From Paracoccaceae bacterium (GTDB lineage: Bacteria; Pseudomonadota; Alphaproteobacteria; Rhodobacterales; Rhodobacteraceae), in assembly GCA_021741245.1 (NCBI GenBank), contig JAIOYF010000001.1:372001-436000 (forward strand): a stretch of DNA of 64,000 nt, in the 5' to 3' direction. Positions 8,772 through 44,661 of the stretch are shown in pieces. Under the pieces are notes generated by a model that searched no databases, had not been told where the DNA came from, and saw only the letters and a program-made list of their open reading frames with translations. Every line of letters starts with the position of its first letter. The stretch's first letter is position 1. A program made the translations under genes and the position numbers.

Positions 8772-9707
8772 TCAGCCGTTCAGCATCATCTGATAGCTGG
8801 CTGGCACATAGCGGAAGCCGCTGTCCTTTGCCTCGACAAACCCCATGCCGGGGAAGGGCATGTGATACCCGATGAAAGGCACACGGTCGGCGGCCAACAT
8901 GCCAAAAACGGATTTGCGGCTTGCGGCGGCGGCGGCCTTGTCCATGTCAAAGCGCACTTCCCATTCGGGATAGGCCAGTGACCAGACATAGTGGTTGGCC
9001 GTGTCTGCCGTGATCGCCAGCATCTTGCCGTCACTTTCCAGCATATAGACCATGTGGCCCGGCGTGTGGCCCGCAGCCATTTTCGCCGTGATGCCTGAGG
9101 CGACGCTGCCACCATCGTCAAGGAAGGTAAGCTTGTCATTCACAGGCTTTACGCTTTTGTCGAAGCCTTCGTTGCCCGCCGCAGACCAATGGTTATGCTC
9201 GACAGCGCCCGTCACATAGCGGGCATTGGCAAAGGTCGGGGTGCCGCCTTCGGTCATCATGCCGCCGATGTGGTCGCCGTGCATATGGGTCAAGACAACG
9301 ACATCAACCTGATCCGGGCTGATACCCGCCGCTGTCAGGGCCACCCCGGTGCCTGCCGCACTCAGGCCCGTGTCAAACAACACAAGTTCAGTCCCGGTAT
9401 TGACCAGCGTCGGGGTAAAGAAGAATTGCGCAACATCGGTTGGGATGAATGCCGCGTCTGCGGCGGCGTTGAATTCCTCTGGCGTGGCGTTCAGGCCAAA
9501 GATTTCATTGGGCTTTTCGACAGGGCGCGTTCCTGCCAGCAGGGTTGTCACCTCAAACCCGCCCAACTTGAAGCGGTTGAAGACGGGGCTTGCGGATCCC
9601 TGCATTTCGACGGCCGCGAAAGCGGCGCGTGGCATCAGGGCTGGGGCAAGGGGCAGGGCGGCCGCTGCAAACAGGGCAGAGCGGCGGGTCATCGTCGCGG
9701 GTTTCAT
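8772..9707 (-). CDS. Tat-exported MBL-fold metallo-hydrolase
   Basis: The 311-residue protein starts with a twin-arginine-like leader (MTRRSALFAAAALPLAPAL), so it is probably folded before export to the periplasm. The metallo-beta-lactamase zinc motif HMHGDH is at 141-146. A second-metal His is in AGHTPGH and an Asp in ITADTANH. ATG at 9707 follows GGAGG; the longer frame to 9794 has no site. The fold hydrolyses lactones, esters or phosphodiesters, and the substrate cannot be told. It lies downstream of the zincin gene on the same strand and has its own strong terminator. Confidence 0.85.
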   Translation of the reverse strand: MKPATMTRRSALFAAAALPLAPALMPRAAFAAVEMQGSASPVFNRFKLGGFEVTTLLAGTRPVEKPNEIFGLNATPEEFNAAADAAFIPTDVAQFFFTPTLVNTGTELVLFDTGLSAAGTGVALTAAGISPDQVDVVVLTHMHGDHIGGMMTEGGTPTFANARYVTGAVEHNHWSAAGNEGFDKSVKPVNDKLTFLDDGGSVASGITAKMAAGHTPGHMVYMLESDGKMLAITADTANHYVWSLAYPEWEVRFDMDKAAAAASRKSVFGMLAADRVPFIGYHMPFPGMGFVEAKDSGFRYVPASYQMMLNG

Positions 9708-9812
9708 GGTCGTCCTCCGATTGGGTTCACATCCGAAAGGATAGGGGTTTCGGTTTGCGAGGCCACTCACAGACTCGTCATCGACGTGCAACAATGCACA
9801 AATGCTGTGCGG

Positions 9813-10223
9813 CTATTCCCACCACGGGTCAATTCTGGCGATGTCCTCATCGCTCCAGCCAAAATGATGCGCCAGTTCATGCACCAAGACATGGGTCACC
9901 AATTCCTGCAGGGACACCGTGCCGCGTTCAGCCCATTCATCTAATATTGGGCGGCGAAACAGCCAGATCACATCGGGATGAAAGGACGGGTCCATAACGG
10001 ATTTATCGGTCAGCGGGACCCCCTCATAAAGCCCCGTCAAGGCAAAGGGATCTTGCATGCCCATCGCTTCAAGCATGTCTTGTGGCGCGAAATCCTCGAT
10101 CCGCAATACGATCTGGCTTGCCGCCGCGCGATAGGGCAAGGGCAACGATACGACCGCCTCATGCGCCATCTGCTCGATCAGCGAAAGGTCTGGTGCGATT
10201 GCGGTGGAGGGGATCTGGGTCAT
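9813..10223 (-). CDS. Zincin-like metallopeptidase family protein
   Basis: The small protein (136 residues) has an HExxH zinc motif, His115-Glu116-Leu-Ala-His119, in the context VTHVLVHELAHHFGWSDEDI. This matches the Zincin_1 (possible metallopeptidase) family, common in alphaproteobacteria and of unknown substrate. There is no signal peptide, so it is cytosolic. It is transcribed towards the Tat-exported hydrolase gene with about 105 bases between them. Start at ATG 10223. Confidence 0.85.
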   Translation of the reverse strand: MTQIPSTAIAPDLSLIEQMAHEAVVSLPLPYRAAASQIVLRIEDFAPQDMLEAMGMQDPFALTGLYEGVPLTDKSVMDPSFHPDVIWLFRRPILDEWAERGTVSLQELVTHVLVHELAHHFGWSDEDIARIDPWWE

Positions 10224-10705
10224 GCTATGACTATAGGGTCGCCCCCGCGCGAACGCAAAGGCCGGGTTGGCAGGCTGGCCACTTACAGTCCTTGGGCGGA
10301 CGCAGGCGGAATTTGTTCGGCTGAGGCGATGTCAGATCGAACGGCAATCCCTTGCGGGCTTGATCGCTCGGCATGAAGCCAGAGCGCCACAGCAGAAATG
10401 CCGCGTCCCACTATCCGCGGTTTCTAGTCCAGTGATGGAGATCGGGCGCAGGGCTTTCCCCAAGTAAGTTGGACGCCTACTTTCCGTCAAAACGCGCCAA
10501 AGCGATTTCTGGCCCGTCCTTGCCTGACCAATGGCCATTTTCTCAAGCGCTCAGCCCGCCCTTCCTTCCGGGTGTTTTTGGCAACCTGATCCCTGCCAGC
10601 CTTGATGATCTGGTCAGGGATCGGAAGATCGAACCGATCTGATCTTGGCAAACTGGACAATTCGCAGGCCATGTGACAGGGAAGAGCGGTCAAGGAGCCT
10701 GTCCC
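10224..10705. other. Intergenic region upstream of gltX
   Basis: About 480 bases lie between the divergent zincin and gltX genes. Short open frames occur on both strands, but none has a good start with a ribosome-binding site or resembles a family I know. A dyad GATCGG-N9-CCGATC (about 10618-10638) lies some 70 bases before the gltX start and could be a regulatory site or leader hairpin. No tRNA-like fold was found. Confidence 0.45.
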
Positions 10706-12037
10706 ATGTCCGCAAAAACCATCACCCGTTTCGCCCCGTCGCCCACCGGCTATATCCATGTCGGCAACCTGCGCACGGCATTGATGAACTATTTGATTGC
10801 CCGCAAGTCAGGGGGGCAGTTCATCTTGCGTCTGGATGACACGGATCAGGAGCGCTCAAAGCAAGAATACTCCGATGCCATCATGCGCGATCTGGAATGG
10901 CTGGGCCTGGATTGGGACCGGGTCGAGCGGCAGTCGCTGCGGATGGACCGCTATCGCGAGGCGGCTGAGGACCTGAAAGGGCGGGGCCGGTTCTATGAGG
11001 TGTTCGAGTCGCCGACCGAGTTGGATCTGAAGCGCAAGAAGCAACTGAACATGGGCAAGCCCCCGGTCTATGACCGTGCGGGGCTGAAACTGTCGTCCGA
11101 CGAGAAAGAAAAATTGCGCGCCGAAGGCCGTGATGGGTATTGGCGATTCTTGCTGGATCAAGAGCGCATCGAATGGACCGACGGCATCTTGGGGGCCATT
11201 TCGATTGATGCGGCCTCGGTCTCGGACCCGGTGCTGATCCGCGCGGATGGTCAGGTGCTGTATACATTTGCCTCCAGCGTTGATGACATTGACATGGGCG
11301 TCAGCTTTATCGTGCGCGGGGCGGATCACGTGACCAATACTGCCACCCAGATCCAGATCATGCAGGCCATGGGCGGCACGCCGCCCAGCTTTGCCCACCA
11401 TTCGCTGTTGACCGGGGCAAAGGGCGAGGAATTGTCAAAGCGCCTTGGCACGCTGTCGCTGCGCGATCTGCGCGCCCGTGGGGTGGAACCTGCGGCACTG
11501 CTGAGCCTGATGTCGCGGCTTGGCTCCTCTAGGCCGGTGGAATTGATTGGCTCGATGGAAGAGTTGATCGAGGGCTTTGATATCGGCACCTTTGGTGCGG
11601 CCCCAACAAAGTTTGACGCCGAAGATCTGTTCCCCCTGACCCGCGCCTATGTGCAGGGACGGTCTTTTGCCGACGTGGCTGCCCCTATTGCCGCGCTTGG
11701 CGTGCCCGCAGATCAGGCAGAGGCATTTTGGGATGTGGCCAAGGGCAACATCACGGTTATGGCCGATCTTGAGGGCTGGTGGACCCTGTTCCGCGATGGC
11801 GCAACGCCTGTGGTTGAAGAGGCTGACCGCGCCTTTGTGGCCGAGGCTTTCGCCCTTTTGCCTGCCCAGCCATGGACGAAGTCCACGTGGTCGGAGTGGA
11901 CCACTGCGGTGAAGGCCGCCACGGGACGCAAGGGCAAGGATTTGTTCCGCCCCCTGCGTCGCGCGCTGACAGGTCTGGATGCGGGGCCAGAGATGGCCGA
12001 TGTCATGCCGATGCTGCCGGGCGTGCCAAAGCTGTAA
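10706..12037 (+). CDS. gltX: Glutamyl-tRNA synthetase
   Basis: This class I synthetase charges tRNA-Glu (or tRNA-Gln in organisms that use the amidotransferase route). It has 443 residues. The HIGH signature appears as HVGN at 18-21 after FAPSPTGYI, and the KMSKS loop as LSKR at 243-246. ATG 10706 follows AAGGAG. Alphaproteobacteria commonly carry two GltX paralogues; the short length fits the smaller type, but I cannot assign its tRNA specificity. The gene appears monocistronic or joined with the MATE gene 66 bases downstream. Confidence 0.93.
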   Translation: MSAKTITRFAPSPTGYIHVGNLRTALMNYLIARKSGGQFILRLDDTDQERSKQEYSDAIMRDLEWLGLDWDRVERQSLRMDRYREAAEDLKGRGRFYEVFESPTELDLKRKKQLNMGKPPVYDRAGLKLSSDEKEKLRAEGRDGYWRFLLDQERIEWTDGILGAISIDAASVSDPVLIRADGQVLYTFASSVDDIDMGVSFIVRGADHVTNTATQIQIMQAMGGTPPSFAHHSLLTGAKGEELSKRLGTLSLRDLRARGVEPAALLSLMSRLGSSRPVELIGSMEELIEGFDIGTFGAAPTKFDAEDLFPLTRAYVQGRSFADVAAPIAALGVPADQAEAFWDVAKGNITVMADLEGWWTLFRDGATPVVEEADRAFVAEAFALLPAQPWTKSTWSEWTTAVKAATGRKGKDLFRPLRRALTGLDAGPEMADVMPMLPGVPKL

Positions 12038-34585: not shown

Positions 34586-34973
34586 CCGGATTTGATTCGA
34601 GCATTCGGCCCGAACTCGACCCCCCCTCTCTTGATGATTGCGCAAACACTTTGATCGCCCTTTGCGATGCGTCATTTTGCGCACGGTGGGTGGTTCGGCG
34701 CCATCCCGTGGCGGCTCTCTGTTCCTCACCAACTTGTGAATGCGCAGCGGCTTGATAAACAAAGCCAATTTTTTGTGCGTGTTGTGAACTTTTACTCTAT
34801 TCACACCCGTTTCGTCAATTTTTTTACAAAAATAATGATTGAATAAAGGGGGTTATCAAAAAATTGACTATGCGTTAATGTGGCACTTGGGATCGGGCGC
34901 CCGCATCGGCTTTGGCCGGGCACTGCGGGGCTGGGAGGCGGGCAATGGCCTGCTCGCTATGAGGGAGGACGAC
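34586..34973. promoter_or_regulatory. Long AT-richer regulatory region upstream of acsA
   Basis: About 390 bases without a gene. It holds three TTTGCG half-sites (34641-34646 on the minus strand, 34661-34666 and 34676-34681 on the plus strand), similar to sites of RamB/ScfR-type regulators of acetate genes. A dyad TGTGAA-N11-TTCACA lies at 34783-34805. The segment from about 34760 to 34870 is markedly AT-rich. I cannot pick one -10/-35 pair with confidence. Confidence 0.45.
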
Positions 34974-36938
34974 ATGTCAGAAAAAAGTTCAGCGCAGCCA
35001 GTCTACACGGCATCTGCCGACTTTATCTCAAAGGCGCATATTGACGCCGAAGGATATGAGGCAATGTACGCCGCCTCAATCGCGGACCCGAATGCCTTTT
35101 GGGCAGAGCAGGGCCAGCGTATCGACTGGATCAAACCCTATACCAAGATCAAGAATTCCACGTTCGAGTTGGGCAAGGTATCCATCAAGTGGTTTGAGGA
35201 TGCGACGCTGAACGTCAGCGCCAATTGCATCGACCGCCATATGGTCAACCGCGCCAACCAGACCGCGATCATCTGGGAACCCGATGATCCAAAGACACCC
35301 GCGCAGCACATCACCTATGCCCAGCTTTTGGAAAACACGAGCCGGATGGCCAATGTGCTCAAGGCGCATGGGGTGACCAAGGGTGATCGCGTTGTGCTTT
35401 ACATGCCGATGATCCCCGAGGCGGCCTATGCGATGCTGGCTTGTGCGCGGATCGGGGCCATTCATTCCGTGGTCTTTGCGGGCTTCTCGCCCGATGCGTT
35501 GGCCAACCGCATCAATGACTCTGAGGCCAAGGTGGTGATCACCGCCGACTATGCCCCCCGTGGTGGCAAGAAGACGGCATTGAAATCCAATACGGACAAG
35601 GCGCTGTTTGATTGCTCGGATCGGGTAAAATGCCTTGTGGTCAAGCACACCGGCGATCAGATCACATGGATCGAGGGGCGCGATGTGGATGTGAAGGCCG
35701 AAATGGCCGCCGCCAAACCCTATTGCTCATATGTCGAGGTCGGTGCCGAAGATCCGCTGTTCATCCTTTACACCAGCGGTTCCACCGGGCGGCCAAAGGG
35801 GGTTGTGCACACGACAGGCGGTTATCTGGTCTATGCCTCGATGACGCATCAATACACCTTTGATTACCATGACGGCGATGTGTTTTGGTGCACGGCGGAT
35901 GTGGGTTGGGTTACCGGGCACAGCTATATCGTCTATGGGCCATTGGCCAATGGTGGCACGACCATCATGTTCGAGGGCGTGCCGACCTATCCGGACGCGG
36001 GCCGCTTCTGGGAGGTGTGCGCCAAGCACAAGGTCAACCAGTTCTACACCGCGCCAACTGCGATCCGCAGCCTGATGGGCATGGGGGCCGAGTGGGTTGA
36101 AAAGCACGATCTGAGCAGCCTCAAGCTCTTGGGTTCGGTGGGTGAGCCGATCAACCCCGAGGCTTGGAACTGGTATAACACCCATGTCGGCAAGGGGAAT
36201 TGCCCGATTGTCGATACCTTCTGGCAGACCGAAACCGGCGGCCACATGATCACGCCTTTGCCCGGCGCCATTGCACAAAAGCCGGGGGCGGCGACCAAGC
36301 CGTTCTTTGGGGTCAGCCCTGTGGTGCTGGACCCTGCCAATGCGGCCTTGCAGACCGAAACCGTGGCCGAAGGGGTGCTTTGCATCACTGATGCATGGCC
36401 GGGGATGATGCGCACGCTTTGGGGCGATCATGCGCGGTTTGAGGAAGCCTATTTCAGCCAGTATCCCGGCTATTACTTTACCGGCGATGGCTGCCGTCGT
36501 GATGAGGATGGCGATTACTGGATCACCGGCCGGGTGGACGATGTGATCAACGTCTCGGGTCACCGGATGGGCACGGCCGAGGTGGAATCGGCGCTTGTGG
36601 CACATGAAAGCGTGGCCGAGGCGGCTGTCGTGGGCTACCCACATGACATCAAGGGGCAGGGCATCTATGCCTATGTCACGCTGATGAACGGGGTGGAGCC
36701 GACACCAGAGTTGCGCAAGGAACTGGAGGCTTGGGTCCGGACCGAGATTGGCCCGATTGCCAAGCCCGACCTGATCCAATGGGCCCCCGGTCTGCCGAAA
36801 ACCCGCTCGGGCAAGATCATGCGCCGTATCTTGCGCAAGATTGCCGAGAACGACTTTGCCGCACTGGGCGATACCTCGACCCTCGCCGATCCTTCGGTGG
36901 TGGACGAGTTGATCGAAAACCGGATGAACAGAGGCTGA
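34974..36938 (+). CDS. acsA: Acetyl-CoA synthetase (AMP-forming)
   Basis: The cytosolic enzyme activates acetate with ATP and CoA, releasing AMP and PPi. It has 654 residues, the normal length. The A3-type phosphate loop [14 protein letters not shown] and the A8 hinge region ISGRVDD-like [20 protein letters not shown] are present. The regulatory acetylation lysine is Lys614 in [14 protein letters not shown] 34974 follows GGGAGGA. It begins an apparent unit with adk and a Na+ symporter, consistent with uptake and use of acetate or propionate. Confidence 0.96.
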
Positions 36939-37685: not shown

Positions 37686-37943
37686 ATGGCGGACAAATCA
37701 TCGTCCAATGCCTATTGGGCCGCGAACATTCGGATCATCATGATTTCCTTGGTGATCTGGTTTGTCGCGTCCTATGGCCTTGGCATCATCCTGCGCCCGA
37801 TGCTGGCCGGAGTTACGGTCGGCGGCACCGACCTTGGCTTTTGGTTCGCGCAGCAAGGCTCAATCATCGTCTTTATCGTGCTGATCTTTTTCTATGCATG
37901 GCGGATGAACAAACTCGACGCTGAATACGGCGTAGAAGAATAA
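37686..37943 (+). CDS. DUF4212 protein, Na+/solute symporter small subunit
   Basis: This 85-residue protein has two membrane helices (about 15-35 and 55-75) separated by a short periplasmic loop, ending in a charged cytosolic tail. It matches DUF4212, the small partner encoded just before VC_2705-type sodium:solute symporters. Located 18 bases before the symporter gene. It probably helps assembly or function of the transporter, as YjcH-like proteins are thought to do for ActP. Confidence 0.88.
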   Translation: MADKSSSNAYWAANIRIIMISLVIWFVASYGLGIILRPMLAGVTVGGTDLGFWFAQQGSIIVFIVLIFFYAWRMNKLDAEYGVEE

Positions 37944-37961: not shown

Positions 37962-39731
37962 ATGGATCAATATACCCTCAACTTGCTGGTGGTGGGCGCG
38001 TCTTTTGCGCTTTACGTCGGCATTGCGATCTGGGCCCGCGCGGGCACGACCGCCGAGTTCTATGCAGCAGGTCAGGGCGTACACCCTGTTCTGAACGGCA
38101 TGGCCACCGCTGCTGACTGGATGTCGGCGGCCTCGTTCATTTCGATGGCTGGCTTGATCGCCGCTGTCGGCTATGGCAACTCCACCTATCTGATGGGCTG
38201 GACCGGGGGCTATGTGCTTCTGGCGCTTCTGCTTGCGCCTTATCTGCGCAAATTCGGCAAGTTCACCGTGCCGCAATTCATCGGCGACCGCTTTTACAGC
38301 CAAAGCGCACGTATGGTTGCAGTTCTGTCGCTGATCATCATTTCGGTCACCTATGTGATCGGGCAGATGACGGGCGCAGGTGTGGCGTTTGCGCGTTTCC
38401 TTGAAGTCAGCAGTGCGCAAGGCTTGTACATCGCGTCGGCCATCGTGTTCGTCTATGCCGTTCTTGGCGGCATGAAGGGCATCACCTATACGCAGGTGGC
38501 GCAGTATTGCGTGTTGATCGTCGCCTATACCATCCCGGCGGTCTTTATCTCGCTGCAACTGACGGGCAACCCGATCCCCGGTCTGGGCCTGTTCTCGACC
38601 CATACCGAATCTGGCCTGCCGCTGCTGTCCAAGCTGGACCAGTTGGTCACGGAACTTGGGTTCAACGACTATACGAGCCTGCACGGCTCGACCTTCAACA
38701 TGTTCCTCTTCACCCTGTCGCTGATGATCGGTACGGCCGGTTTGCCGCACGTCATCATCCGCTTCTTCACGGTGCCAAAAGTGGCTGACGCACGTTGGTC
38801 GGCTGGTTGGGCGCTTGTCTTCATCGCCCTGCTTTACCTGACAGCCCCGGCTGTGGGCGCCATGGCGCGTCTGAACATCATCGACACCATCTATAACAAC
38901 GGCACGCAGGCTGACTCGGTCCTGTATGAAGAGCGCCCGGAATGGATGCGGACCTGGGAAGTTACCGGACTGCTGAAGTTCGAGGACAAGAACGGCGACG
39001 GTCGTATCCAGTACTACAACGACAAGTCGGAAGCCTTTAAGGCAACTGCTGAAGGGCGTGGTTGGGCTGGTAACGAATTTACCTTCAACAATGACATCCT
39101 CGTTCTTGCGAACCCCGAGATTGCACAGCTTCCGGGCTGGGTGATCGCGCTGATCGCGGCTGGTGGTCTGGCAGCGGCGCTGTCGACGGCAGCCGGTCTG
39201 CTGCTGGCGATTTCTTCGGCCATCAGCCATGACCTGATCAAGGACTTCCTGAACCCGAACATCTCGGAAAAGGGCGAACTTCTGGCCGCCCGTATCGCAA
39301 TGGCGGGTGCGATCGCAGTGGCGACATGGCTGGGTCTGAACCCCCCCGGCTTTGCGGCGCAAACGGTGGCTCTGGCCTTTGGTTTGGCTGCAGCGACGAT
39401 CTTCCCGGCACTGATGATGGGGATCTTCTCAAAGCGCGTGAATGCGGCAGGGGCAACCTTGGGCATGCTTTCGGGATTGGTCGTGACCTGTCTGTATCTG
39501 TTCACCTATCTGGGTTGGTTCTTCATCCCGGGCACAAACATGATGGAAAACATCCCGGCCAACTATCTGTTCGGCGTCCCGCCAGCAGCCTTTGGTCCGA
39601 TCGGTGCGCTGATCAACTTTGCTGTGGCCTATCTGGTCTCGTCGGTGACGGCAGCACCGCCACAGCATGTGCAGGATCTGGTTGAATCGATCCGTGTGCC
39701 AAAAGGTGCAGGCGCAGCCTCCGCCCACTAA
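37962..39731 (+). CDS. Sodium:solute symporter, VC_2705/ActP-like
   Basis: The inner-membrane SSS-family transporter has 589 residues and about thirteen helices. Conserved segments include AGQGVHPVLNGMATAADWMSAASF, near the start, and GGLAAALSTAAGLLLAISSA. The large loop around residues 310-375 (GRIQYYNDKSEAF) is typical of the VC_2705 subfamily. With acsA and adk upstream it probably imports acetate or another short monocarboxylate with Na+. A strong terminator sits right after it. Confidence 0.9.
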   Translation: MDQYTLNLLVVGASFALYVGIAIWARAGTTAEFYAAGQGVHPVLNGMATAADWMSAASFISMAGLIAAVGYGNSTYLMGWTGGYVLLALLLAPYLRKFGKFTVPQFIGDRFYSQSARMVAVLSLIIISVTYVIGQMTGAGVAFARFLEVSSAQGLYIASAIVFVYAVLGGMKGITYTQVAQYCVLIVAYTIPAVFISLQLTGNPIPGLGLFSTHTESGLPLLSKLDQLVTELGFNDYTSLHGSTFNMFLFTLSLMIGTAGLPHVIIRFFTVPKVADARWSAGWALVFIALLYLTAPAVGAMARLNIIDTIYNNGTQADSVLYEERPEWMRTWEVTGLLKFEDKNGDGRIQYYNDKSEAFKATAEGRGWAGNEFTFNNDILVLANPEIAQLPGWVIALIAAGGLAAALSTAAGLLLAISSAISHDLIKDFLNPNISEKGELLAARIAMAGAIAVATWLGLNPPGFAAQTVALAFGLAAATIFPALMMGIFSKRVNAAGATLGMLSGLVVTCLYLFTYLGWFFIPGTNMMENIPANYLFGVPPAAFGPIGALINFAVAYLVSSVTAAPPQHVQDLVESIRVPKGAGAASAH

Positions 39732-39791: not shown

Positions 39792-41615
39792 ATGGACCAA
39801 GCCACTGAAACCATTTTTGGATTTCTAGAGACTGTTCATCCCTATGACAGCCTGCCGCATGATGAGCTGACGCGTGTCGCCGGTTCTTTTGGCCGCAGGG
39901 AAATTGCCGCAGGTGTGGAAATCTACCGCGCAGGACAACCGCTTGAAGGTCTGTATCTGATCAAGCGTGGGTCGGTCGAGGTGACCGAAGGCTCGGGTCA
40001 GGTGATTTCCCTTCTGGGCCCCCGCAACAGTTTTGGCGAACGCGGGGTGCTGCGTGACGGGACTGCTGTGACCACAGCCAAAGCGACCGAGGCCGTTGTG
40101 GTCTTGATCCTGCCCGCAGAGGTGTTTCGTGCACTGATCGCGCAATATCCCGCCTTTGAGCGGTTCTTTCGCCGGGGACCAAAGGCCGAGGCCCGCAGTG
40201 GCGATCTGAGTACCCTAAAAGTGGGCGACCTGATGGCCCGCAGGCCCATTGTCGTTGCCCCATCCGACAGTATCGCCACCGCCGCCCGCAAGATGCGCGA
40301 TGCGCAAGTGTCTTGTCTTGGGGTGGTCGACGAGGGACGATTTCTGGGCATCGTCACCACCCGCGACATGGCCACGAAGGCCTTGGCCGAGGGGCTGGCC
40401 CCCGCGTCGCCAGTGTCGCAGATCATGACGGCCAACCCCGAAGTCCTGACGCCGCATTCGCTTGGCTCGGATATCTTGCACATCATGCTTGAACGCCGGG
40501 TCGGGCACCTTCCCATTGTAGAGGAAGGTCGCTTGGTGGGCATGATCACCCAAACCGATCTGACGCGGTTTCAGGCGGTCAGTTCGGCCCTTTTGGTGCG
40601 CGATGCAGCCGTGGCAGAAACGGTAGCGGAAATGGCAGCCGTGACCGCCCGGATACCCGCACTCTTGATGCAGTTGGTGGGGGGCAATAGCGCGCATGAG
40701 GTGGTGACGCGCCTCATCACCGATATCGCAGACACCGTCACGCGGCGGCTTCTGACCTTGGCGGAGGCAGCACTTGGCCCGGCCCCGGTGCCCTATCTCT
40801 GGCTTGCCTGTGGCAGTCAGGGGCGGCAGGAACAGACCGGCGTTTCGGATCAGGACAATTGCCTGATGATCGACGATGCCGCCACGGATGCCGACATGGC
40901 CTATTTTGCGGCGCTGGCAAAATTTGTTTGTGACGGGCTGAACGACTGCGGCTATGTCTATTGCCCCGGTGATATGATGGCCAGCAATCCGCAATGGCGC
41001 CAAAGGGTTGCGGTCTGGCGGGATTATTTCCGGGGCTGGATCAAACGGCCGGACCCGACCGCCCAGATGCTGGCCAGCGTGATGTTTGATCTGCGCCCGA
41101 TTGGGGGGCAAGCCAGCCTGTTTCACGAGGTGCAGCATGAGACGCTGACCCTTGCGGCCCAGAATTCCATCTTTGTGGCGCATATGGTCTCCAACAGCCT
41201 CAAGCATACGCCACCCTTGGGCCTGCTGCGCGGCTTTGCCACCATTCGGTCGGGCGAGCACAAGAACCACATCGACATGAAGCATAACGGCGTTGTGCCT
41301 GTGGTGGATCTGGGCCGTGTCTATGCGCTGATCGGGGAATTGCCCGACGCCAATACCCGCGCCCGGCTGGAGGCGGCCGAGGCGGCTGGCGTCATCAGCC
41401 CTTCGGGCGCGCGTGATCTGATCGAGGGCTATGACGTGATTGCCCAGACGCGGTTGGAAAATCAGGCGCGCCTGATCCGGTCTGGCCGCGCGCCGGACAA
41501 CTTTCTTGCGCCTTATGATCTTTCGGACTTTGAGCGTTCTCATCTGCGCGATGCCTTTGTCGTCGTGCGCACAATGCAATCCGCTGTGGGCAGTTCCCGC
41601 GGCGCCAGACTGTGA
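39792..41615 (+). CDS. cNMP-binding/CBS/DUF294 nucleotidyltransferase-like protein
   Basis: The 607-residue cytosolic protein has four parts: a cyclic-nucleotide-binding domain (about 15-115, FGERGVLRDG), a CBS pair (about 140-270, LMARRPIVVAPSD), a DUF294 nucleotidyltransferase-like domain with GSQGRQEQTGVSDQDN (from residue 341), and a DUF294 C-terminal helical domain. The G-S...D-x-D pattern of a pol-beta-type nucleotidyltransferase is intact. The family is consistently linked to acetate-type symporters and a DnaQ-like exonuclease, for example next to actP in Pseudomonas. It probably senses nucleotides to regulate transport or acetate metabolism. ATG 39792 follows AGGAGG. Confidence 0.88.
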   Translation: MDQATETIFGFLETVHPYDSLPHDELTRVAGSFGRREIAAGVEIYRAGQPLEGLYLIKRGSVEVTEGSGQVISLLGPRNSFGERGVLRDGTAVTTAKATEAVVVLILPAEVFRALIAQYPAFERFFRRGPKAEARSGDLSTLKVGDLMARRPIVVAPSDSIATAARKMRDAQVSCLGVVDEGRFLGIVTTRDMATKALAEGLAPASPVSQIMTANPEVLTPHSLGSDILHIMLERRVGHLPIVEEGRLVGMITQTDLTRFQAVSSALLVRDAAVAETVAEMAAVTARIPALLMQLVGGNSAHEVVTRLITDIADTVTRRLLTLAEAALGPAPVPYLWLACGSQGRQEQTGVSDQDNCLMIDDAATDADMAYFAALAKFVCDGLNDCGYVYCPGDMMASNPQWRQRVAVWRDYFRGWIKRPDPTAQMLASVMFDLRPIGGQASLFHEVQHETLTLAAQNSIFVAHMVSNSLKHTPPLGLLRGFATIRSGEHKNHIDMKHNGVVPVVDLGRVYALIGELPDANTRARLEAAEAAGVISPSGARDLIEGYDVIAQTRLENQARLIRSGRAPDNFLAPYDLSDFERSHLRDAFVVVRTMQSAVGSSRGARL

Positions 41616-41625
41616 AAGGGGCGTG

Positions 41626-42147
41626 ATGCTCTTTGATTTTATCGCCGCTGCGGCCGCCGGATTTGGCCTTGCGGGTATTGCCATGCTGTTGCGCCATCTG
41701 ACGCGGGGGCTTTTGCCGCGCTGGATCGTGCCTTTGACCGCTGGTGTCGGCATGTTTGGCTATGCGGTTTGGAATGAGTACACGTGGTTTGATCGGGTGA
41801 CGGGCGCTTTTGGCGAAGGGGTTGTCGTCGTCTCGGCCCCAAGCGAGTCACAGTTCTATCGGCCATGGACCTATGTAAAGCCGCTGACCCTGCGCTTTGT
41901 GGCGTGGGATGGGGTGAATGTCTTACGCTCGACCGAAGTGCCCGGCCTTTTGCAAGGGGACGCGGTGATCGTGCATCGTTGGCAAGAAACGCAGCGGGTG
42001 CGCATGGCTTTTGATTGCCTGGCCGGGCGTCAGGTGACGTTGATGGAGGGGGCAAGCCTTGCCCCGGATGGCACCCTTACCAACGCAAAGTGGCAAGAGG
42101 CTGCGGCAGATGATCCGTTGCAGCCGGTGGCCTGTCAGGGGGGCTGA
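41626..42147 (+). CDS. Membrane protein, unknown
   Basis: The 173-residue protein has two N-terminal helices (about 1-20, FIAAAAAGFGLAGIAML, and 33-50) followed by a periplasmic domain of about 120 residues. AAAGGGG precedes ATG 41626. I do not recognise a family. It is tightly packed between the DUF294 gene (10 bases) and the response regulator (one base), so it is probably part of the same signalling unit, perhaps sensing at the envelope. Confidence 0.7.
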   Translation: MLFDFIAAAAAGFGLAGIAMLLRHLTRGLLPRWIVPLTAGVGMFGYAVWNEYTWFDRVTGAFGEGVVVVSAPSESQFYRPWTYVKPLTLRFVAWDGVNVLRSTEVPGLLQGDAVIVHRWQETQRVRMAFDCLAGRQVTLMEGASLAPDGTLTNAKWQEAAADDPLQPVACQGG

Positions 42148-42148
42148 G

Positions 42149-42541
42149 ATGGATCACGACTCCAAACGCAAATACCGGATTCTGGTGGTTGAGGATGAGG
42201 ATAACATCGCCTTTGCACTGGACTATGTCATGATGCGCGAGGGGTATGAAAATGATCGCATCTCCAACGGTAGCGAAGCCCTGTCGCGCATTCGCGAAAC
42301 GCGGCCCGATCTGGTGCTGCTGGATGTGATGCTGCCCGACGTGTCTGGCTATGAAATCTGTCAGGATGTGCGGCTTGATCCAACGCTGAGCGATGTGAAG
42401 ATCTTGATGATGACGGCGCGGGGATCGGCCATTGAACGGCGCAAGGGGCTGGCCCTTGGGGCGGATGGGTTCATCTCAAAGCCCTTTGAGCTAAGCGAAT
42501 TGCGCCAAGAGGTGCGTCGCTTGCTGGCACCGGGCGGCTGA
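42149..42541 (+). CDS. Receiver-only response regulator
   Basis: This single-domain CheY-like protein of 130 residues has an acidic pocket in VVEDED, the phospho-accepting Asp59 in LVLLDVMLPD, the switch Thr89 in MMTARG and Lys111 in FISKPFE. All catalytic positions are present and there is no output domain. It starts one base after the preceding stop and ends eight bases before the pseudokinase-exonuclease gene. Its phosphodonor is unclear because that neighbour lacks the phospho-accepting His. Confidence 0.9.
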   Translation: MDHDSKRKYRILVVEDEDNIAFALDYVMMREGYENDRISNGSEALSRIRETRPDLVLLDVMLPDVSGYEICQDVRLDPTLSDVKILMMTARGSAIERRKGLALGADGFISKPFELSELRQEVRRLLAPGG

Positions 42542-42549
42542 CCTTGGCT

Positions 42550-44661
42550 ATGGGTGCGCCAGTGCAGACCCCCCAAAAATCCGCGTCGCTGCGGTGGCGT
42601 CTTTTGGCATGGTGCGGGATGTTGGCGGTGGGGGTCGTGGCCGCGATCGTGTTGGGGCTGTGGTCGGGCTATCGGCATCTGGGCCAACCGCAAGCGATGG
42701 CTGCCTTTGTGCAGGCGGGTATCCTTGCGGGCTTTTTGGCGCTGGGGGCTGTGGTTTGGCTGTGGTTCACCTTGGATCAGCGGTTGGCGCGGCCCTTGAT
42801 GGCGCTGCCGGGGGCGTTGCGGGGGCGGGCGCATGCGGATGTGGCCCAGCCAATTGATCTGACCGATGCAAGCCCCTTGGGCGATCTGCTGCCTGCCGCC
42901 AATCATCTGGTGGAGGCGCTGCGCCAGACCCGGCACGCGCTGTCCGATGCCGTGGAGCGCGAGACCCAAAGACTAAGCGAGGGCAATGCGAAGCTTGAGG
43001 CGCTTTTGGCCGATGTGCCGGTGGGTGTCTTGATGTGTTCGGGCGACCATCTGCTTGCCTTTTACAATGCGCAGGCGGTGGATCTGATGGGCGCGGGGGG
43101 CACCGCCCCGGGCTTGGGTCGGCGCTTGTTCGACTATCTGCGTGAGGGGCCCATTCACCACGCCTATGCACGGCTTGTGGCCTCGGGGGATGGTGACGCA
43201 GCCTCGACCCTTTTGTGCACCACGCTTGATGGCGCGCGGGTGCTGTCGGCGCGGATGCGGTTGCGCACAACGGCGCAAGGCACGGCGCAGGGCTATGTGC
43301 TGACGCTGCGGGATGTGACAACGGATCTGGCCTCACATGCACGACGCGAGGCGTTTGTGACCGAGGTTTTTGACCGAATCCGCCGCCCCACTGCGACTCT
43401 GTCCACTATGGTGCAGGCCGGGGCGCAGGGCGATGGCGTGCCTGCCCGCTTCGATAAGGTAATGCGCGCCGAGGTGGGCCATCTTGTGCAGGCTTTGGCA
43501 GATCTTTCGGCCCGACACGATGCCGAGCGCACAGAGGACTGGCATCTGCAAATGACGCGCGCCAGTGATCTGGGCGACGGGTTGCGCGCGCGGATGGAGG
43601 CAGATGGCCTTGCCGTCACCATCACAGCGCAAGATATCTATCTGCGTTGCAACGGGTTTGAGGTGATCGCGCTGGTCGCGGGCCTTGCCCAAGAGATGGC
43701 CTTGGCAGGTCTTGCCACCCAATTTGAAGTAGAGATGGGCGAGGATGGGGCCGGGGCTATGATCCGGCTTGTCTGGCCGGGGCATCCCCTGTCCATGGCG
43801 CGGTTGACGCAATGGCTGAATTCGCCGCTGGAGCCGGGCTTTGCCGATGTCTCACGGCAATCTGTCCTCGGGTTTCATGGCACCGAAATCTGGCCCATTG
43901 CCGCGGGGGCCGGGCAGCACGCGCTGTGCCTGCCGATCTTGCACGCGCGGCGGGCCGTCACGCGCCCCGAGGCGATCCGCCGCGCTGTGGTCTATGACTT
44001 TGACCTGTTGTCAAAGGAACGCTCCGCGAAAGTGCAAGATGCCGCCCTTATGGATTTGACCTATGTGGTTTTCGATACTGAAACCACAGGCCTGCTGCCG
44101 GACCAAGGCGATGAAATCGTTCAGATCGCTGCGGTGCGCATCGTCAACGGGCGGCGGGTCGAGGGCGAGGTGTTTGATACCTTGGTCAACCCCCGGCGGG
44201 CCATTCCCGCCGCCTCTACCGCCGTTCATGGGATCACCGACGCGATGGTACAAGATGCGCCCTGTATCGAGGATGTGGCGTCGAGGTTTCATAAATTTGC
44301 CGAAGGGGCTGTCCTTGTGGCCCATAATGCGCCCTTTGACATGGCCTTTTTGCGCCGGGTTGAGGGGGCGATTGCGCGGCGCTTTGACAATCCCATCTTG
44401 GATACCGTCCTTCTGTCGGCGGTCATTTATGGCCAGCAAGAGGTTCACACTCTGGATGCGCTGACGCATCGGCTGGGAATAACCATCCCCGAAGAGGCGC
44501 GCCACACCGCAATCGGCGACACGATTGCCACGGCAGAGGCCGTATTAAAGCTGCTGCCCATCCTCAAAGGGCAAGGGCTGGCAACCTTTGGGCAGGTTCT
44601 GACTGCCGTTCGGCGTCATGGGCGTCTGGTCAAAGATTTGAACGCATCAGGCGTTCGATAG
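42550..44661 (+). CDS. Sensor pseudokinase fused to DnaQ-like 3'-5' exonuclease
   Basis: The 703-residue product has two membrane helices (about 17-38 and 52-76), a HAMP-like linker, and a PAS-like domain (about 150-260). A histidine-kinase-like part (about 265-450) follows, and then a DEDDh exonuclease (about 505-690). In the HisKA-like motif FVTEVFDRIRRPT, the position of the phospho-accepting His is Asp275, so kinase function is probably lost. The exonuclease residues are complete: Asp509 and Glu511 (FDTETTG), Asp597 (HNAPFD), His652 and Asp657. Automated pipelines would call it DNA polymerase III epsilon, but the domain context says otherwise. ATG 42550 is chosen; TTG 42544 is possible. 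It closes the DUF294/regulator unit. Confidence 0.85.
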   Translation: MGAPVQTPQKSASLRWRLLAWCGMLAVGVVAAIVLGLWSGYRHLGQPQAMAAFVQAGILAGFLALGAVVWLWFTLDQRLARPLMALPGALRGRAHADVAQPIDLTDASPLGDLLPAANHLVEALRQTRHALSDAVERETQRLSEGNAKLEALLADVPVGVLMCSGDHLLAFYNAQAVDLMGAGGTAPGLGRRLFDYLREGPIHHAYARLVASGDGDAASTLLCTTLDGARVLSARMRLRTTAQGTAQGYVLTLRDVTTDLASHARREAFVTEVFDRIRRPTATLSTMVQAGAQGDGVPARFDKVMRAEVGHLVQALADLSARHDAERTEDWHLQMTRASDLGDGLRARMEADGLAVTITAQDIYLRCNGFEVIALVAGLAQEMALAGLATQFEVEMGEDGAGAMIRLVWPGHPLSMARLTQWLNSPLEPGFADVSRQSVLGFHGTEIWPIAAGAGQHALCLPILHARRAVTRPEAIRRAVVYDFDLLSKERSAKVQDAALMDLTYVVFDTETTGLLPDQGDEIVQIAAVRIVNGRRVEGEVFDTLVNPRRAIPAASTAVHGITDAMVQDAPCIEDVASRFHKFAEGAVLVAHNAPFDMAFLRRVEGAIARRFDNPILDTVLLSAVIYGQQEVHTLDALTHRLGITIPEEARHTAIGDTIATAEAVLKLLPILKGQGLATFGQVLTAVRRHGRLVKDLNASGVR

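Follow-up and report, generated by a model that had tools for sequence, protein, structure and literature searches.

What does a cell gain from a sensor kinase that has lost the residues needed for phosphotransfer and carries a complete nuclease site on the same chain? The question is raised by one gene in a stretch of 64,000 nucleotides from a Paracoccaceae bacterium (assembly GCA_021741245.1, contig JAIOYF010000001.1, positions 372,001 to 436,000 of the forward strand; hereafter the window, whose own numbering is used for all coordinates below). The gene at 42550-44661 encodes a protein of 703 amino acids (aa) that joins a putative membrane part, a PAS domain and a histidine-kinase-like core to a DEDDh exonuclease. 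The answer that we favor, and hold to be somewhat probable, is that a DivL-like pseudokinase reads an adjoining receiver-only regulator and thereby gates a membrane exonuclease that is paired with a nucleotidyltransferase in acetate-uptake loci. The features on which this answer leans are as follows, with the dimerization and histidine-phosphotransfer hairpin abbreviated DHp and the catalytic, ATPase-like domain CA.

42550-44661, plus strand: fusion of membrane part, PAS domain, pseudokinase and DEDDh exonuclease, 703 aa (translation, Pfam, AlphaFold2, Foldseek)
42589-42837, plus strand: two long N-terminal helices, aa 14-96, putative membrane part (hydrophobic sequence, AlphaFold2 model)
43012-43320, plus strand: PAS domain, aa 155-257 (PAS_4, E 4.5e-6)
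43321-43545, plus strand: pseudo-DHp hairpin, aa 258-332, with Asp275 at the phospho-His position, proposed receiver dock (model, profile alignment, DHp-receiver survey)
43546-43959, plus strand: degenerate CA/ATPase-like domain, aa 333-470 (model, Foldseek, profile comparison, residue counts)
44065-44541, plus strand: DEDDh exonuclease core, aa 506-664, with D509, E511, D597, H652 and D657 (RNase_T, E 5.2e-38)
42149-42541, plus strand: receiver-only response regulator, 130 aa (Response_reg, E 2.6e-26)
39792-41615, plus strand: cyclic-nucleotide-binding domain, two CBS domains, DUF294 nucleotidyltransferase and DUF294_C (Pfam, motif GSxGRxE..DQD)

The fusion is a single open frame with no internal stop. 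An initial annotation, made from the letters alone, had described the same architecture, and Pfam, AlphaFold2 and Foldseek agree with it. A domain search bears out one half of that description directly: RNase_T and PAS_4 are the Pfam matches in the 703-aa protein, and neither HisKA nor HATPase_c finds a match there. Among 42 aligned relatives, HisKA matches three (best E 0.0019) and HATPase_c one (E 0.052); the resemblance to kinases therefore rests on structure and profile comparison. The AlphaFold2 model, built from 42 sequences (mean pLDDT 81.5, pTM 0.63), places N-terminal helices at 14-44 and 47-96 with almost no external loop between them, and a long helix that leads from these to the PAS domain. 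A DHp-like hairpin follows (helices 257-292 and 299-330; block means of pLDDT 63-89), then a CA-like fold up to residue 468 (84-96) and a linker to the DnaQ-like exonuclease. Foldseek against the PDB gave WalK (E 1.6e-16), LOV-kinases and VicK as best matches for the middle part, these being multi-domain alignments with a root-mean-square deviation of at least 13 Å, and the DivL structure 4q20 at rank 50. For the C-terminus, it gave the exonucleases of PolC, DinG and DnaQ, mostly within 2-3 Å. On the model and the profile alignments together, we take the kinase-like region to be real despite the silence of Pfam.

That region has apparently lost kinase chemistry. We compared it with a profile of intact SLC5-type kinase cores (16 of the 17 found, the 17th lacking the HELRTP-like motif); the hhalign match spans 212 columns (probability 98.0, E 1.5e-12) and pairs D275 with the phospho-His, E382 with the N-box Asn and W409 with the G1 Asp. 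Asn occurs at position 382 in 1/102 and 2/52 sequences and Trp at 409 in 98/102 and 44/52. The initial annotation had put Asp275 at the phospho-His position, and had named a conserved phospho-accepting His with measurable autophosphorylation as a finding that would overturn its view; there is no His at position 275 among 143 distinct sequences, three of which have a gap there. Asp (88) and Glu (37) predominate, the rest being Pro (3), Ala (3), Leu (2), Thr (2), Gly (2), Ser (1), Gln (1) and Arg (1). The H-box His, and the N-box Asn and G1 Asp that a sensor histidine kinase uses for Mg-ATP, are thus all replaced, which supports, as far as sequence can, reading the core as a pseudokinase: the PAS-DHp-CA fold of a DivL-type module, with no phospho-His. 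It might be argued that Asp275 is itself a phospho-acceptor or relay aspartate and that the module still works in phosphotransfer, as the acidic residue in 125 of the 143 sequences would allow. However, Glu, Ala, Gly, Thr, Pro and others also stand at this position, and the residues that ATP requires in the N-box and G1 have been replaced; we regard such a relay as very improbable.

The nuclease site, by comparison with its relatives, looks intact. All five residues of the DEDDh set (D509, E511, D597, H652 and D657) are present, as the initial annotation had noted. They are invariant in 81/81 sequences, and the set is kept in 231/231 related frames (220 distinct exonuclease sequences), including those of loci with no pseudokinase. 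Together with RNase_T and the Foldseek matches, this places the domain in the DEDDh class, and we predict a 3'-5' exonuclease. It shares the fold and the five catalytic residues with DnaQ/PolC-type enzymes; unlike them, it is predicted to be membrane-tethered and lies beside a nucleotidyltransferase, and it is probably not a replicative proofreader. Identity with the replicative DnaQ was set aside, a separate DnaQ-like frame of 242 aa being present in the genome. Public plasmid records call relatives of the protein "3'-5' exonuclease," "exonuclease domain-containing protein," "DNA polymerase III subunit epsilon" or "hypothetical protein," and leave some unannotated. Because there is no His at position 275 and the DEDDh set is invariant, we describe the family, on its sequences, as a pseudokinase with an intact nuclease site.

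Could the fusion be an artefact? A scan of genome contigs gave 581 relatives, and in the best 80 of these the CA part and the exonuclease share one frame in 80/80, which rules out a sequencing artefact or frame error. Separate genes artificially joined, the second finding that the initial annotation had said would count against it, are thus not what is seen: the fusion is conserved, although stand-alone exonuclease relatives exist. The DHp part scores as full in 77 of these 80 and is lost or shortened in three (L067, L072 and L083). Labels on the nearest relatives are Pseudotabrizicola, Gemmobacter and Cereibacter; Rhizobiales, Pusillimonas and Arenimonas occur among the others. L067 and L072, with the betaproteobacterial labels Pusillimonas and Neopusillimonas, fall among the Rhodobacteraceae in the tree; they have lost the receiver as well as the DHp, a pattern as expected after horizontal transfer. 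One further copy (L040, CP059262.1), on a chromosome labelled Exiguobacterium profundum, groups with the Rhodobacteraceae and is probably from a mislabelled metagenome-assembled genome.

What, then, is the kinase-like part for? The adjoining receiver offers a clue. The initial annotation had pointed to its intact Asp59, and D59 is kept in 126/127 receivers, K111 in 124/127 and Thr or Ser at 89 in 123/127. Since these phosphorylation residues are kept, phosphorylation of the receiver by a true kinase elsewhere can be expected. The window's genome does contain an SLC5-type kinase with an intact H-box (L247, G000:C17:250631-253315). Its neighbors are a small hydrophobic protein and another regulator of the receiver-only type, and no exonuclease is found in that stretch.

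The receiver and the pseudo-DHp tend to be present or lost together. The first set comprised 121 loci, of which 101 frames with a CA part were scored for DHp length; three of the 121 frames, which lack the letters ETTGL, were dropped, and L074, cut by a contig end, was omitted from the counts of DHp and CA length. The DHp segment is at least 60 aa long in 86/86 receiver-bearing members. In the 15 receiver-less members it measures 9, 19, 19, 45, 53, 55, 56, 57, 71, 71, 73, 73, 75, 77 and 79 aa, so that short segments (9-57 aa) are found in 8/15 of these versus 0/86 of the receiver-bearing ones. The CA part of the eight short-DHp members stays at 135-141 aa. These counts use the stricter of two definitions of a receiver (86 with and 15 without; the looser gives 87 and 14). 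Under it, L073 and L123 count as receiver-less, though a weaker receiver frame, below the 40% threshold, abuts the gene in both of these full-DHp loci, and L093 counts as receiver-bearing with its receiver 4.6 kb away. In L065, another receiver-less locus with a full DHp, the genome encodes a receiver of 72% identity at a different place.

A second, genus-level sample covered 246 genomes of the window's family, 115 of which have the exonuclease. It gave 114 loci besides the window's own (110 fetched and four from the earlier set); 14 of the 114 have an exonuclease identical to a first-set one, so the two samples overlap. Receiver and pseudokinase are both present in 41 loci, both absent in 61, with the pseudokinase alone in 11, the receiver alone in none, and one (L183) at a contig edge and left unscored here and in the simulation below. 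L236 and L240, which lack the ETTGL letters, were skipped as in the first set; all five frames lacking this motif still have the D-E-D-H-D set. Among the 111 loci that could be scored, a full DHp accompanies the receiver in 41/41 (71-81 aa in every case) versus 2/70 without it. The survey genomes are related and these raw counts overstate independence; parsimony requires seven receiver changes and six DHp changes. After the independent-pair tests, traits were simulated on one quick tree of the exonuclease domain, with 6, 8 or 12 changes placed at random, either evenly over the branches or in proportion to branch length capped at 1. The observed agreement of 109/111 was reached in 0 of 100,000 cases under every one of these six settings. 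Taken together, the counts support an evolutionary link between the receiver gene and the pseudo-DHp.

Several observations weigh against making too much of this link. Four Rhizobiales-like members (L069, L070, L075 and L071, the last labelled Arenimonas) keep a DHp of 71-73 aa with no close receiver in the genome; their best receiver match is 46% identical and lies in frames of 228-247 aa, which we take to be the size of PhoB-type regulators. L169 and L232 keep DHp segments of 70 and 66 aa with no receiver in the fetched stretch, and L101 and L102 have a receiver and a kinase in the cluster and no pseudokinase part. These eight are the exceptions to the co-occurrence with a receiver-only regulator that a DivL-type module otherwise shows here. 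The independent-pair tests gave 3:0 in the first set, with four pairs showing no difference, and 1:0 in the survey, numbers of pairs too small for significance. Covarying residue pairs between receiver and DHp were no more frequent than by chance, with 16 of the top 50 pairs falling in the DHp versus 17.4 expected (effective number of sequences 88.8; mutual information in two versions, the first dominated by near-invariant columns). The SLC5-type kinase of the window's genome has a match in 222/246 family genomes versus 41 receiver-bearing loci; a count of this kind does not discriminate, and naming the cognate kinase by co-occurrence was rejected. Finally, of the 113 genus-level genomes that could be scored, 61 lack the pseudokinase. 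Since these run the exonuclease with no pseudokinase, gating is inessential to the role of the exonuclease, and the kinase-like part is an optional regulator.

That same absence would suit a simpler account, in which the kinase-like core is a functionless, decaying remnant, the protein a plain membrane-anchored exonuclease and the receiver a hitch-hiker. The loss of the catalytic motifs and the lack of covariation with the receiver would fit as well. Yet the CA part keeps a confidently predicted fold, the DHp holds a near-constant length wherever the survey finds a receiver, and its shortening or loss tracks the absence of the receiver, as random decay would not; we judge this account to be quite unlikely.

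A different possibility accepts that the receiver docks and reverses the signal: the pseudokinase would titrate or protect the phosphorylated receiver, or control another kinase, and the exonuclease would be constitutive. There are precedents of a sort, in that DivL reportedly controls another kinase, CckA, and phosphate sinks are known. However, in the loci examined, all of them fetched by their exonuclease, the only frames that match the pseudokinase profile and lack the exonuclease are two intact kinases, and control in cis would be natural for a pseudokinase that shares its chain with the exonuclease. We think a reversed signal unlikely, and prefer gating of the exonuclease by the pseudokinase.

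The closest parallel to such gating is the DivL/DivK system of Caulobacter. According to one study (PMC4211667), DivL has the PAS-DHp-CA architecture, carries Tyr where the His would be and senses whether DivK is phosphorylated; in alphaproteobacteria that have no DivK, the DHp-CA part of DivL is frequently missing. Both systems, on that description, combine a replaced phospho-His with the read-out of a response regulator, and in both, loss of the DHp (or DHp-CA) accompanies absence of the regulator. They differ in that DivL, in the same account, keeps its H, N, G1, F and G2 boxes apart from Tyr550, whereas the fusion protein is also without the N-box and G1 residues and its family mostly has Asp or Glu at the His position; furthermore, only the fusion protein carries a nuclease on the same chain.

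The partner that most constantly accompanies the exonuclease appears, from the genomic counts, to be the DUF294 nucleotidyltransferase, more so than the pseudokinase. Eighty genomes picked for their strong match to DUF294 contain 34 exonuclease matches with E up to 1e-50. Twenty-six of these have a listed DUF294 no more than 6 kb away and five more (L111, L117, L119, L125 and L129) are near or fused to one on reading of the locus; two (G481, at 13.8 kb, and G486) are not within 6 kb, and the locus of the last (G037) was not fetched. This distance check took 55 listed exonuclease places, including all 34, and omitted most short DnaQ-like ones. DUF294 is found in 111/114 loci of the family survey, and its nucleotidyltransferase motif GSxGRxE..DQD is intact in 214 of 218 homologous frames. 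The two activities even occur in one polypeptide: L111:7503-9638 (minus strand) is a single protein of 712 aa with RNase_T (E 3.3e-34), CBS, DUF294 (E 1.7e-33) and DUF294_C by Pfam, and L130:9036-11147 (minus strand) is by BLAST another exonuclease-CBS-DUF294 fusion. Given this constant association, we would suggest that the exonuclease acts on something that the DUF294 enzyme makes or marks.

Other relatives are joined to other partners. At L103:8274-9779, beside a DUF294 gene, an EamA-type (DMT) transporter is fused to a like exonuclease (Pfam), and L106 (minus strand, 9403-10911) carries the same fusion by sequence likeness to L103; several more have varied hydrophobic N-terminal parts, judged by eye.

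DUF294_C has been grouped with the C-terminal domains of GlnD and GlnE (PMC3710099). A difference from GlnE/GlnD-type nucleotidyltransferases is that the reversing partner here would be a DEDDh nuclease. Judging by the papers listed, the open-access literature that we searched holds no description of this fusion or of the exonuclease-DUF294 pair.

The remaining genes of the neighborhood, all on the same strand, point to acetate.

34971-36938, plus strand: acs, acetyl-CoA synthetase, start codon chosen by hand, the listed frame starting at 34839 (Pfam AMP-binding, E 2.5e-86, AMP-binding_C, ACAS_N)
37686-37943, plus strand: DUF4212, small symporter subunit (TIGR03647, E 6.9e-32)
37962-39731, plus strand: VC_2705-family sodium/solute symporter, acetate-type by context (TIGR03648, E 6.6e-245)
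41569-42147, plus strand: small protein with hydrophobic N-terminal stretches, start chosen by hand (conserved in the operon)

The pairing of a TIGR03648 symporter with a DUF4212 subunit is that of an acetate symporter locus, and the acetate-uptake link seen in the initial annotation stands, by family and context. The genes recur in the order DUF4212, symporter, DUF294/CBS, small protein, receiver, exonuclease. In the best-80 loci, several of them cut by contig ends, DUF294 is the most frequent of these neighbors (77 loci), followed by the small protein (74), the symporter and the receiver (69 each), DUF4212 (62) and acs (51). The small conserved protein, which sits between the DUF294 and receiver genes, has no family match in Pfam or NCBIfam. 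Of the 121 first-set loci, 17 have an SLC5-type histidine kinase no more than 7 kb from the exonuclease. The one of Paracoccus methylovorus (HisKA E 1.6e-20, HATPase_c E 1.6e-29, SSF below threshold at E 0.00048) adjoins a receiver-only regulator.

Kinases of this kind are familiar from the CrbS/CrbR and SLC5/STAC acetate systems, in which an SLC5-containing kinase is likewise tied to symporter genes (PMC5715377, PMC8402216, PMC9100948). One CrbS/R paper places Pflu5625, which combines cAMP-binding, CBS and nucleotidyltransferase domains, in the CrbR acetate regulon and reports no phenotype for its mutant; judged by its domains, Pflu5625 would be DUF294-type. CrbR, in those accounts, is a DNA-binding regulator, whereas here the regulator is receiver-only and the output linked to it is an exonuclease. 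The words "exonuclease" and "nuclease" are absent from the main text of three CrbS/R papers, as is "exonuclease" from a paper on RpuS/R, the four papers being PMC5436829 and those cited above. An acetate role for the circuit of the fusion protein is one that we infer from this setting.

How might these parts work together? The initial annotation had envisioned a nuclease output in place of phosphotransfer, and in part this holds: the kinase motifs are lost, the exonuclease site is complete and the receiver appears linked in evolution to the pseudokinase part, with cleavage itself a prediction. We imagine that the gene product is a membrane-tethered DEDDh-type 3'-5' exonuclease whose activity would be gated by the pseudokinase module. 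A true kinase elsewhere would phosphorylate the adjoining receiver, which would dock on the pseudo-DHp hairpin much as DivK, which we take to be receiver-only, docks on DivL. Docking might shift the arrangement of DHp and CA and so alter the C-terminal exonuclease, with the PAS domain as a second possible input; we infer docking, gating and the direction of the effect alike. The exonuclease would work together with the DUF294/CBS nucleotidyltransferase encoded in its operon, its substrate most likely being the product or addition of that enzyme, which it would remove or degrade, in a circuit tied to acetate uptake.

One can envision, more speculatively, a two-component pathway that ends in a nuclease "eraser" instead of gene expression or a synthase of a second messenger, with the phosphorylated receiver binding the dead kinase and thereby switching a membrane exonuclease that undoes a DUF294/CBS mark or oligonucleotide signal and so tunes acetate uptake. 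We put this forward tentatively, as a rather doubtful extension of the gating proposal. If the gating proposal itself is right, a receiver-only regulator would control a nuclease via a dead kinase that belongs to the nuclease's own polypeptide. No such output is described in the literature searched, and the principle seen in DivL would reach beyond the cell cycle into metabolism. Of 299 genomes sampled from the phylum, 224 have a DUF294 match above the curated cut-off, although many of the matches are weak; for this common family, the association of DEDDh exonucleases with DUF294/CBS proteins, including single-protein fusions, may provide a handle on function.

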